Of a DNA stretch of 50,058 bases, positions 14,535 through 44,416 are shown piece by piece (position 1 is the first letter of the stretch; every line of letters starts with the position of its first letter). The stretch covers positions 1 to 50,058 of the forward strand of contig JASKKI010000010.1 in assembly GCA_030154225.1 (NCBI GenBank). The letters run 5' to 3'. The notes beneath the pieces are model-generated. The model did not search any database and was not told the DNA's origin. It saw only the letters and a list, made by a program, of their open reading frames with translations. This DNA comes from Clostridia bacterium (lineage in GTDB: Bacteria; Bacillota; Peptococcia; Peptococcales; BICA1-8). Made by a program: the position numbers and the translations under genes.

Positions 14535-14601
14535 TAAATTAAGGGCTCATTTTTTAACGTTAAAGAAATTATAACTTTTGGGCTAACCTTCAATCTTAAT
14601 C

Positions 14602-14674
14602 TTTTATTTCCTGTAGCACGGTAGCACTGTAGCTACTGTAGGTTATGAAAAACCGACGAATTCGGTTTTTCTTA
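14602..14674 (+). repeat. Copy 1 of a 43-nt identical element plus terminator hairpin
   Basis: Positions 14602-14644 are identical to 42797-42839. The core has GTAG four times at 8- to 9-nt spacing, and ACGGTAGC can pair with GCTACTGT across a 6-nt loop. A terminator-like hairpin (AACCGA, loop, TCGGTT and a T-run) follows within 7 nt. It may be the shared end of transcripts, a structured RNA, or a regulatory leader for the BMP lipoprotein gene 140 bp downstream. Confidence 0.7.
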
Positions 14675-36129: not shown

Positions 36130-36205
36130 GAGCCATTAGCTCAGTTGGCAGAGCACCTGACTTTTAATCAGGGTGTCCCGCGTTCGAGTCGCGGATGGCT
36201 CACCA
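36130..36205 (+). tRNA. tRNA-Lys (TTT)
   Basis: A 76-nt cloverleaf with acceptor stem GAGCCAT/ATGGCTC, anticodon loop CTTTTAA (anticodon TTT), T-arm GTTCGAGTC and an encoded CCA. Confidence 0.95.
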
Positions 36206-36274
36206 ATTCAAGAAGCAAGAGGTCAGATACAACAAGGTCTTGCCTCTTGCGTCCTGCATCTTGCCTCATGATAT
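36206..36274. repeat. Degenerate AAGCAAGAG / CTTGCCTCTTG spacer repeat 1
   Basis: The spacer between tRNA-Lys and tRNA-Glu reads as an imperfect inverted repeat: ATTCAAGAAGCAAGAG at the left and CTTGCCTCTTGCGTCC further right. Related copies fill the spacers at 36352-36436 and 36677-36748. Confidence 0.6.
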
Positions 36275-36351
36275 GGCCCGTTGGAGAAGCGGCTTAACTC
36301 ACCAGCCTTTCACGCTGGCATTCAGGGGTTCGAATCCCCTACGGGTCACCA
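36275..36351 (+). tRNA. tRNA-Glu (TTC), copy 1
   Basis: A 77-nt cloverleaf with acceptor GGCCCGT/ACGGGTC (one G-U), anticodon loop CTTTCAC (TTC) and encoded CCA. It differs from copy 2 at 36600 by one base in the D arm. Confidence 0.95.
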
Positions 36352-36436
36352 TTCAAGAAGCAAGAGGCCAGAAGCAAGAAGCAGGAAAGTTATTGAAATT
36401 TCTTGCCTCTTGCATCATGCATCCTGCCTCATGCAT
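36352..36436. repeat. Degenerate spacer repeat 2
   Basis: CAAGAAGCAAGAGG and GAAGCAAGAAGCAGG on the left mirror TCTTGCCTCTTGCATC on the right. About 40 nt, including GGAAAGTTATTGAAATTTC, is shared exactly with the spacer after tRNA-Glu copy 2. Confidence 0.6.
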
Positions 36437-36512
36437 GGGCGATTAGCTCAGCTGGGAGAGCACCTGCCTTACAAGCAGGGGGTCGGCAGTTCGATCCTGT
36501 CATCGCCCACCA
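36437..36512 (+). tRNA. tRNA-Val (TAC)
   Basis: A 76-nt cloverleaf with acceptor GGGCGAT/ATCGCCC, anticodon loop CTTACAA (TAC) and encoded CCA. Confidence 0.95.
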
Positions 36513-36599
36513 TTTTCGAGGTTAGAGGTTCGAAGTTAGGGGCTCGAATTTCTAATCTTAAATTTTCCCAATGTCGAGCATCCAATTTGCATTTTGTTA

Positions 36600-36676
36600 G
36601 GCCCGTTGGAGAAGTGGCTTAACTCACCAGCCTTTCACGCTGGCATTCAGGGGTTCGAATCCCCTACGGGTCACCA
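36600..36676 (+). tRNA. tRNA-Glu (TTC), copy 2
   Basis: Identical to copy 1 except one C-to-T in the D arm (GAAGTGGC instead of GAAGCGGC). With its shared downstream spacer it indicates a local duplication of tRNA plus spacer. Confidence 0.95.
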
Positions 36677-36748
36677 TTCAAGAAGCAAGAAGCAGGAAAG
36701 TTATTGAAATTTCTTGCCTCCTGCGTTCTGCATCCTGCCTCATGAATT
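36677..36748. repeat. Degenerate spacer repeat 3
   Basis: Begins TTCAAGAAGCAAGAAGCAGG and continues with the same core as spacer 2, then CTTGCCTCCTGCGTTCTG. A short copy of the right half (CTTCTTGCCTCTTGC) also occurs near 44378, upstream of the CcdA-like gene. Confidence 0.6.
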
Positions 36749-36824
36749 GGAGCTGTGGTGTAGCGGTTAACATGTCGGCCTGTCACGCCGAAGATCGCGG
36801 GTTCGATTCCCGTCAGCTCCGCCA
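36749..36824 (+). tRNA. tRNA-Asp (GTC)
   Basis: A 76-nt cloverleaf with anticodon loop CTGTCAC (GTC), T-arm GTTCGATTC and encoded CCA. Confidence 0.95.
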
Positions 36825-36830
36825 TAATTT

Positions 36831-36906
<76 letters not shown>

Positions 36907-36907
36907 C

Positions 36908-36944
36908 AAAAAAACCAGTCACTTTCAAAGGTGGCTGGTTTTTT
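36908..36944 (+). terminator. Terminator of the six-tRNA cluster
   Basis: AAAACCAG-t-CAC pairs with GTG-g-CTGGTTTT and ends in TTTTTT directly after tRNA-Phe. Confidence 0.82.
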
Positions 36945-37226
36945 GCTGGAACTTTTTTGATTATTGTTACGTTAAATAAGTAATATATTGCCAATTGTCT
37001 TGGCGGGCCTGTTTGAACTGTCGGGCCACTTTATATTTAGAACCCAATTATAATTACGAAACCCAGGTTATGGTTAAAAGCATTGAAGGAGAGCGTAGTC
37101 AAAGAGGAACCAATTAAACTCAGGCTGTGGGAAGATAGAAAAAGTAGATTGGGAAGATAGAAAGGATTATATAATTTTAAAGTGGTCTTTTCAAAAAGTA
37201 GAAAAGAATGTATAATCAAATCAGAT
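36945..37226. other. Intergenic region before tRNA-Gly
   Basis: No gene is visible. It contains a direct repeat of GGGAAGATAGAAA (near 37129 and 37150) and a TATAAT at 37211-37216 that may be the -10 of tRNA-Gly with a weak -35 (TTTTCA). Confidence 0.5.
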
Positions 37227-37302
37227 GCGGATGTAGCTCAATTGGTAGAGTATCGGCTTCCCAAGCCGAGGGTTGCGGGTTCGAGCCCCGTCATCCGCTC
37301 CA
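37227..37302 (+). tRNA. tRNA-Gly (CCC)
   Basis: A 76-nt cloverleaf with acceptor GCGGATG/CATCCGC, anticodon loop TTCCCAA (CCC) and encoded CCA. Confidence 0.94.
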
Positions 37303-42610: not shown

Positions 42611-42760
42611 ATGGAGAAACAACTACATATTAGAACTATTAACAGCCAGAAGTTACAAAAAACTTTAAAAACAGGTGGATGTGGGGAATGTCAAACTTCT
42701 TGCCAATCAGCTTGTAAAACTTCATGTACTGTAGGAAACCAGGTTTGTAAAAATAACTAA
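42611..42760 (+). CDS. scfA: SCIFF peptide precursor (six cysteines in forty-five residues)
   Basis: This 49-residue peptide begins MEKQLHIRTINSQKLQ and continues TGGCGECQTSCQSACKTSC, then VGNQVC, giving the six cysteines that define SCIFF (ScfA). The core is nearly invariant across Clostridia. GGGAGGAGG precedes the ATG. It is a ribosomally made substrate for the radical SAM maturase encoded downstream, which forms a thioether crosslink. The natural function of the mature peptide is unknown. A terminator follows within 5 nt, so the peptide is likely made in excess over the maturase. Confidence 0.95.
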   Translation: MEKQLHIRTINSQKLQKTLKTGGCGECQTSCQSACKTSCTVGNQVCKNN

Positions 42761-42791
42761 AAAATAGACCCATCGGGGTCTAGTTTTTTTT
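42761..42791 (+). terminator. Terminator between scfA and scfB
   Basis: TAGACCC (42765-42771) pairs with GGGTCTA (42776-42782) across a 4-nt loop and is followed by GTTTTTTTT. Confidence 0.85.
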
Positions 42792-42796
42792 AAATT

Positions 42797-42869
42797 TTTT
42801 ATTTCCTGTAGCACGGTAGCACTGTAGCTACTGTAGGTTCAGAAAGACCGATGAAGTCGGTTTTTCTTA
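42797..42869 (+). repeat. Copy 2 of the 43-nt identical element plus terminator hairpin
   Basis: Positions 42797-42839 repeat 14602-14644 exactly. A second terminator-like hairpin (GACCGA, loop, TCGGTT and a T-run) follows, as in copy 1 but with sequence changes that preserve the stem. It lies between the scfA terminator and scfB. Confidence 0.7.
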
Positions 42870-42937
42870 AAAGTGTTTAAGTAATATTTAATTTATTAGC
42901 ATAATATAATATAATAATATAGATAAGGATGGTTTAA

Positions 42938-44335
42938 ATGACCAAGTTAAATTTTAATAATATTCATAAATTTTCCTTTGATGATTTAAAAATACTAATT
43001 GATATTAGTAGTGGTTCAGTTCATGTAATTGACCAGATTAGCTGGGATTTTCTGGAGCAATTAGAAATTTGTGAAGGTGATTGGGAAGAGGCCAGTTCTA
43101 AATTAGTTGACAAATATAAAAACCAGGAACTAAATGAAGTTGTTAGGGAGTTACAAGGGTTAATAACCAATAAGTTACTATTTACTCCTGATATAAAGGA
43201 TACTGATTATCAGCCGTCCAGTAATCCTGTTGTGAAGGCACTATGTTTACACATTGCCCATGACTGTAATTTACGCTGTGGTTATTGTTTTGCCGGTACA
43301 GGAGCTTTTGGCGGGGATAGATCATTAATGACTCAAGAAATAGGAGAAAGAGCAATTGACTTTTTATTTAATGCATCTCAAAATCGCAGGCATGTTGAAG
43401 TAGACTTTTTTGGGGGAGAACCATTATTAAATTTCGGTGTAGTTAAAGAACTAGTTGCCTATGGAAATAAAAAAGCCAAAGAACTAAATAAAGTTATAAA
43501 ATTCACTTTAACTACCAATGGTGTTCTCCTAAATAAGGAAGTACAGGAGTTTTTAGATGAGAATAACATGAGTGTTGTTTTGAGCCTGGACGGGCGAAAA
43601 GAAGTTAATGACAAAATGCGCCCTTTTGTTAATGGTTCAGGTTCTTATGAGATAATAAAGGATAAAATACTCCAGTTTGTGAAAAATCGCCGGCAAGAAG
43701 ATTACTATGTCCGAGGCACTTTTACCCGACACAATCTAGATTTTGCCGCTGATGTTATACACCTGGCGGAACTGGGGTTTAAGGAAATTTCGTTAGAACC
43801 GGTGGTAGCAGATCCTACATTGGACTATGCATTTAAAGATGAGGATTTAGATTATTTAAAGGAACAATATGAGGTTCTTACCCACTATTACTGGCAGCGT
43901 TATGTAAAAGGTCAGGGTTTTAACTTTTTTCATTTTAATATTGATTTAGGCCACGGACCTTGTTTACCTAAACGTTTGTCCGGCTGTGGTGCAGGTCATG
44001 AATACCTGGCAGTTAGTCCCCAGGGAGACTTATATCCCTGTCACCAGTTTGTCGGTAAGCCGGAATATAAAATGGGTCATGTTCTTACAGGTATTGAAAA
44101 TAAAGAGGTATCTAAAGATTTTCAAAATAGCCATGTTCTTAACAAGGAAGAATGTGTAAACTGCTGGGCACGTTACTATTGTAGTGGTGGTTGTCATGCC
44201 AATAATTTAGCTTTTGGAGGGTCTTTATTAAAACCATATAAAATAGGCTGTGAACTCCAACGAAAAAGATTAGAATGTGCTATTTTCCTCCAGGTAAAAA
44301 AACATTTAATAAGTGACAATTTTACTAGATACTAG
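42938..44335 (+). CDS. scfB: SCIFF radical SAM maturase
   Basis: This 465-residue enzyme is the radical SAM/SPASM maturase of the SCIFF peptide. The N-terminal RiPP-recognition-like region (about 1-95) precedes the CxxxCxxC motif in CNLRCGYCFAGTG near residue 111. FFGGEPLLN near 158 follows. The C-terminal SPASM/twitch cysteines include GCGAGHEYLAVSPQGDLYPC near 349 and ECVNCWARYYCSGGC near 405. It installs a thioether bond between a Cys and a downstream residue of ScfA. Only AAGGATGG-type weak ribosome signals precede the ATG, consistent with low expression. Confidence 0.95.
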   Translation: MTKLNFNNIHKFSFDDLKILIDISSGSVHVIDQISWDFLEQLEICEGDWEEASSKLVDKYKNQELNEVVRELQGLITNKLLFTPDIKDTDYQPSSNPVVKALCLHIAHDCNLRCGYCFAGTGAFGGDRSLMTQEIGERAIDFLFNASQNRRHVEVDFFGGEPLLNFGVVKELVAYGNKKAKELNKVIKFTLTTNGVLLNKEVQEFLDENNMSVVLSLDGRKEVNDKMRPFVNGSGSYEIIKDKILQFVKNRRQEDYYVRGTFTRHNLDFAADVIHLAELGFKEISLEPVVADPTLDYAFKDEDLDYLKEQYEVLTHYYWQRYVKGQGFNFFHFNIDLGHGPCLPKRLSGCGAGHEYLAVSPQGDLYPCHQFVGKPEYKMGHVLTGIENKEVSKDFQNSHVLNKEECVNCWARYYCSGGCHANNLAFGGSLLKPYKIGCELQRKRLECAIFLQVKKHLISDNFTRY

Positions 44336-44416
44336 TCACTCACCTGAAATAAGTTTTTTGGCTAATCATTCTCTGGCTTCTTGCCTCTTGCTTTTTGTAA
44401 AGTGTGGTGTTTCCTA

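Follow-up and report, generated by a model that had tools for sequence, protein, structure and literature searches.

The locus that encodes the SCIFF precursor peptide and its maturase in a Clostridia bacterium (assembly GCA_030154225.1) raises the question of where the two hairpins that separate scfA from scfB come from, and whether they bear on the amounts of peptide and enzyme or on the function of SCIFF. The window is the whole stretch of DNA analysed, 50,058 nucleotides of contig JASKKI010000010.1, and the features of the scf locus lie on its forward strand.

Gene layout and hairpins of the scf locus

The gene scfA (42611 to 42760) encodes a SCIFF precursor peptide of 49 aa, belonging to TIGR03973 (85 bits, cut-off 50), and scfB (42938 to 44335) encodes a SCIFF maturase of 465 aa, belonging to TIGR03974 (626.5 bits, cut-off 425) and preceded by a Shine-Dalgarno-like AAGGA at 42925-42929. 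With both genes above the cut-offs, this is the same pair as the known SCIFF/ScfB ranthipeptide pair; the proteins look ordinary at the family level and the difference is confined to the gap between scfA and scfB, which contains an intrinsic terminator, T1, followed by a 77-nt repeat with a terminator-like hairpin at its end. T1 (42765 to 42791) shows the G+C-rich hairpin and following T-tract of an intrinsic terminator (TAGACCC-ATCG-GGGTCTA, G, then T8), folds at -12.5 kcal/mol (z -3.1) and is listed by the consensus terminator scan, which gave four sites over the region against 4.8 expected in shuffles. The repeat (42793 to 42869) stands directly behind the T-tract of T1 and is a copy without the 5' part. 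Its hairpin (42841 to 42867) folds at -14.1 kcal/mol (z -5.0) and has a symmetrical A-tract and T-tract, possibly making it a two-way terminator. Because the simple terminator scan does not list it, its function as a terminator is proposed from structure; we think that the scan misses it because the T-tract can pair back with the A-tract. An earlier note gave the order as scfA, terminator, a 43-nt element with a second terminator, and scfB: the order and T1 are confirmed and the repeat is real, the second terminator is a putative one, and the element extends over 77 nt, of which 43 nt are roughly the best-conserved part. The two hairpins have separate origins, T1 being native to the locus and the second hairpin a passenger.

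The interspersed repeat element and its placement

The element has a consensus of about 119 nt, in which an octamer-like array of the CTGTAGCA type stands between the AT-rich 5' part and a symmetrical A-tract/T-tract hairpin. In the scf copy the array reads CTGTAGCA-CGGTAGCA-CTGTAGCTA-CTGTAGG (42806 to 42837), and similar arrays occur in other genomes. The window contains a second copy, with the 5' part present and on the same strand (14550 to 14674), located between a gene that we take to be thioredoxin-like, for which NCBIfam gave no family, and a gene for a BMP-type ABC substrate-binding protein (NF047927 match, below the cut-off). The segment 14598-14674 is 92% identical to the scf-gap element over 77 nt. 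These were the two copies seen earlier, but the genome contains at least 40 interspersed copies (43 search rows, three of them set aside because they match only the hairpin, weakly and on the reverse strand), a lower bound since scoring covered 40 of 55 first-look candidates. With a longer query the same genome yielded 42 rows, with some copies split over several rows. Copies are near 95% identical at many places. The 5' side varies: this part is missing in the scf copy and several others, and L014, L026 and L029 show other repeat words in its place. L028 and L038 have varied hairpins, and some copies (L042) have lost theirs. At least 94 stretches in public genomes match a short octamer-array pattern; the matches listed, which include Clostridiaceae bacterium BRH_c20a, rumen Bacteroidales and Peregrinibacteria, are octamer arrays in other settings and do not include the whole element. 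In rumen Bacteroidales (L062, L072, L085, L106, L111 and L118), CTGTAGCA arrays are paired in inverted orientation at a spacing of roughly 110-150 nt, often on either side of AT-rich palindromes.

Placement was examined in the 27 copies whose 5' part is intact; in the other 13 of 40 this part is missing, broken or cut by a contig end. A G+C-bearing hairpin and T-tract stand upstream of 24 of the 27, with 4-14 nt between their end and the 5' part, and three (L010, L018 and L026) show no clear terminator upstream. The same test found a terminator at seven of 461 positions drawn at random from these loci and at 13 of 185 positions located 40-109 nt behind other gene ends; of 37 gene ends, 11 have one of this kind somewhere in the 20-130 nt range. 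Intact copies stand in one orientation relative to the upstream terminators. The upstream hairpins differ in sequence from copy to copy, which identifies them as the host genes' own; a GACCC..GGGTC stem like that of T1 occurs in one of the 27 terminators upstream of element copies (L013). Genes near copies that pass NCBIfam cut-offs include clpX, guaA, ackA, thrC, pyrE, spoIID and an alpha-glucosidase gene, and the neighbouring genes are unrelated to one another. The scf copy, devoid of the 5' part, has a 5' junction different from that of the intact copies.

Element DNA was matched in three of 60 genomes: its own and, with weaker and partial matches, two genomes of the same family (G003 and G004). 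Behind clpX, the own genome has a terminator followed by the element, whereas all four family relatives (G001, G002, G003 and G004) have the terminator without the element. Three of these (G003, G004 and G001; loci L210, L211 and L212) carry other repeat-like sequence behind the clpX terminator, so that positions behind terminators may often serve as landing sites. One further copy stands at the end of a contig (L088) of bin G060, which holds this single copy and whose ScfB is 52% identical; we read this as wrong binning of the contig or as an isolated transfer. Plasmid and phage collections gave no match to the element (blastn 'distant' mode, E 1e-5).

The junction hairpin in relatives

The survey of scf loci comprises 52 loci from 52 genomes, in 35 of which scfA lies within the stretch before scfB; G042, whose scfA and scfB lie on separate contigs, scfB at the start of one, is outside this linked count. 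A GA(C/T)CC..GGGTC hairpin with a T-run is found up to 110 nt past the scfA stop in 21 of the 35 junctions. The expectation is 0.004 in 33 junctions, against a background of mixed DNA of several organisms rather than of terminators, and the 21 junctions come from related genomes and are not independent. Because of this relatedness and of the mixed background, the count points to conservation of one feature, not to 21 inventions. The hairpin is absent in the other 14: seven genomes outside the class (G049, G055, G056, G051, G059, G050 and G053), six of family f6, and G007. Several of these 14 junctions carry other hairpins. The distance from hairpin to scfB start was obtained for 17 of 20 junctions with the hairpin, three being left out, and is 20-46 nt in 15 of the 17; the exceptions are 157 nt here, due to the element, and 107 nt in G009, due to another insert. 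This insert (L201) shows a palindrome of about 45 nt and has lengthened the gap independently. For 12 genomes of family f2, which belongs to the same order, no scfA was found next to scfB, and the hairpin is absent within 140 nt behind scfA in all 12. The missing hairpin in these genomes fits an attenuator role and is suggestive, although a single loss in the family would also explain it. Other terminators stand behind scfA in this family (L219, L222, L227-L235 and L242).

The element is absent at all 34 other scfA-scfB junctions examined, where its best score in the 200 nt behind scfA is at most 22, against 154 here. The presence of the element between scfA and scfB in relatives, which the earlier note had proposed to check, is thus contradicted. 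The suggestion that a repeat shared with a transporter gene offers a clue to SCIFF fails likewise: because the element stands near at least 40 unrelated places and misses the other scf junctions, the SCIFF-transporter link is a coincidence of a high-copy repeat and uninformative on SCIFF, and the element is probably no clue to SCIFF function. The accompanying remark that this function is unknown is dated, since the review PMC8326336, citing Chen et al. 2020, lists quorum sensing as a role of SCIFF, and PMC8102284 describes the same study. With this false lead removed, two leads remain: a conserved terminator that may fix the ratio between a peptide widespread in Clostridia and its enzyme, and a repeat that apparently inserts at intrinsic terminators. 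The lineage differences at the scf gap, in this genome and in G009, offer natural tests of the importance of the ratio.

Origin of the gap and comparison with known systems

The account that we favour, and consider likely as a whole, is that T1 is an old attenuator of the scf locus behind which a 5'-shortened copy of a scattered repeat has landed. T1 is part of the locus and probably an attenuator giving more peptide than enzyme: it would stop most transcripts after scfA and leave scfB to be expressed from the smaller share that continues past it, since the T-tract in most relatives is followed almost at once by the ribosome-binding site of scfB. The prediction of more peptide than enzyme from an intervening terminator, already made in the earlier note, gains support from the arrangement conserved in the 21 junctions, as far as sequence can indicate. 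In this lineage the shortened copy would have landed directly behind the T-tract of T1, adding a second terminator-like hairpin and moving scfB away from T1. Expression of scfB in this genome may then depend on double read-through or on a weak new promoter, and the element is presumably neutral or only mildly lowering for scfB.

A promoter of its own for scfB, with the two hairpins merely insulating separate genes and no read-through ratio, is a rival that we regard as rather improbable. A weak candidate, TTTAAT-17-TATAAT, lies at 42887-42915 inside an AT-rich stretch, but it has nine of 12 matches and falls below the threshold of the promoter scan, promoter-like sites in the region are near chance (22 against 17.9, sd 3.7), and the 20-46 nt between hairpin and scfB start in most measured relatives leave little room for a promoter. 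An immobile element, copied by recombination and selected as a backup terminator behind scfA and other genes in need of tight termination, would account for the hairpin with A- and T-tracts, for the strict position behind terminators and for the failure to find transposition marks or a candidate enzyme linked to the element. It is nevertheless unlikely, since near-95% identical copies that are absent at scf and clpX of family relatives indicate recent spread, and since the hairpin is lost in copies such as L042.

Far less credible than either is a cis-acting regulatory RNA, a riboswitch or attenuator responding to a signal common to scfB and the transporter-type gene. A terminator-like hairpin at the end of the element, upstream of scfB, is what such an RNA would show, and some hairpin changes keep pairing (four of 18 predicted pairs are changed on both sides); yet the covariation term is weak and about zero (+0.14 kcal/mol), for which this reading was rejected, and no conserved aptamer-like core is seen. 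Moreover, the copies near unrelated genes track the upstream terminator in position, Rfam matches at gathering thresholds are tRNAs only, and the 34 other scf junctions examined do not have the element.

If the repeat is mobile, as its distribution suggests, it shows none of the usual marks. Target-site duplication was not found in 21 copies (shared words average 5.33, against 5.23, sd 0.17, when partners are shuffled), nor were terminal inverted repeats (the end-to-end score is reached by 28% of shuffles), and the element was rejected as a MITE, which is defined by both. No mobilising enzyme was found for the element in the own genome, which is listed as 99.64% complete and gave no RVT_1 (PF00078) match at E 0.001; in the window, Rfam at gathering thresholds gave no match besides tRNAs and no intron. 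Terminator motifs are insertion sites of class C group II introns (PMC4424553), which, in that description, share with the element insertion after intrinsic terminators in one orientation (24 of 27 copies here), but the element is about 119 nt long, has no recognisable intron parts and stands in a genome where RVT_1 was not matched. REP/RAYT systems share with it short intergenic repeats with hairpins; this candidate was discarded since the only Y1 transposase (PF01797 match), in a locus of 1,949 nt, has no element beside its gene and has its own repeats instead. Two copies of this separate repeat, which begins ATAGGGGCAAGGCGAGAACCGTCCCC, stand behind the Y1 transposase gene in the locus (L181). 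SPRITE of Streptococcus pneumoniae is a terminator-like repeat (PMC3049150) and, compared by that description only, resembles the element as an interspersed intergenic repeat similar to Rho-independent terminators and located near gene 3' ends. SPRITE has an 18-bp duplex and a sequence of its own, whereas the element has a 12 bp hairpin plus the 5' part and the octamer-like array, and its intact copies, unlike SPRITE as described there, directly follow another terminator. In the open-licence literature searched, no work on the scfA-scfB terminator or on the element was found.

A bolder extension of the favoured account, which we hold to be doubtful, joins two claims: that the element is a mobile sequence recognising intrinsic terminators, without target duplication, inverted ends or reverse transcriptase, whose own terminator leaves a new landing site, and that the GACCC/GGGTC hairpin serves as an scf attenuator throughout the class, conserved in sequence by being read and setting the ratio of SCIFF peptide to maturase.

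Repeats of another kind are present elsewhere in the window: a tRNA cluster (36130-37299) shows CTTGCCTCTTGC-type repeats between its genes, and a similar repeat stands inverted behind scfB (44372-44404).
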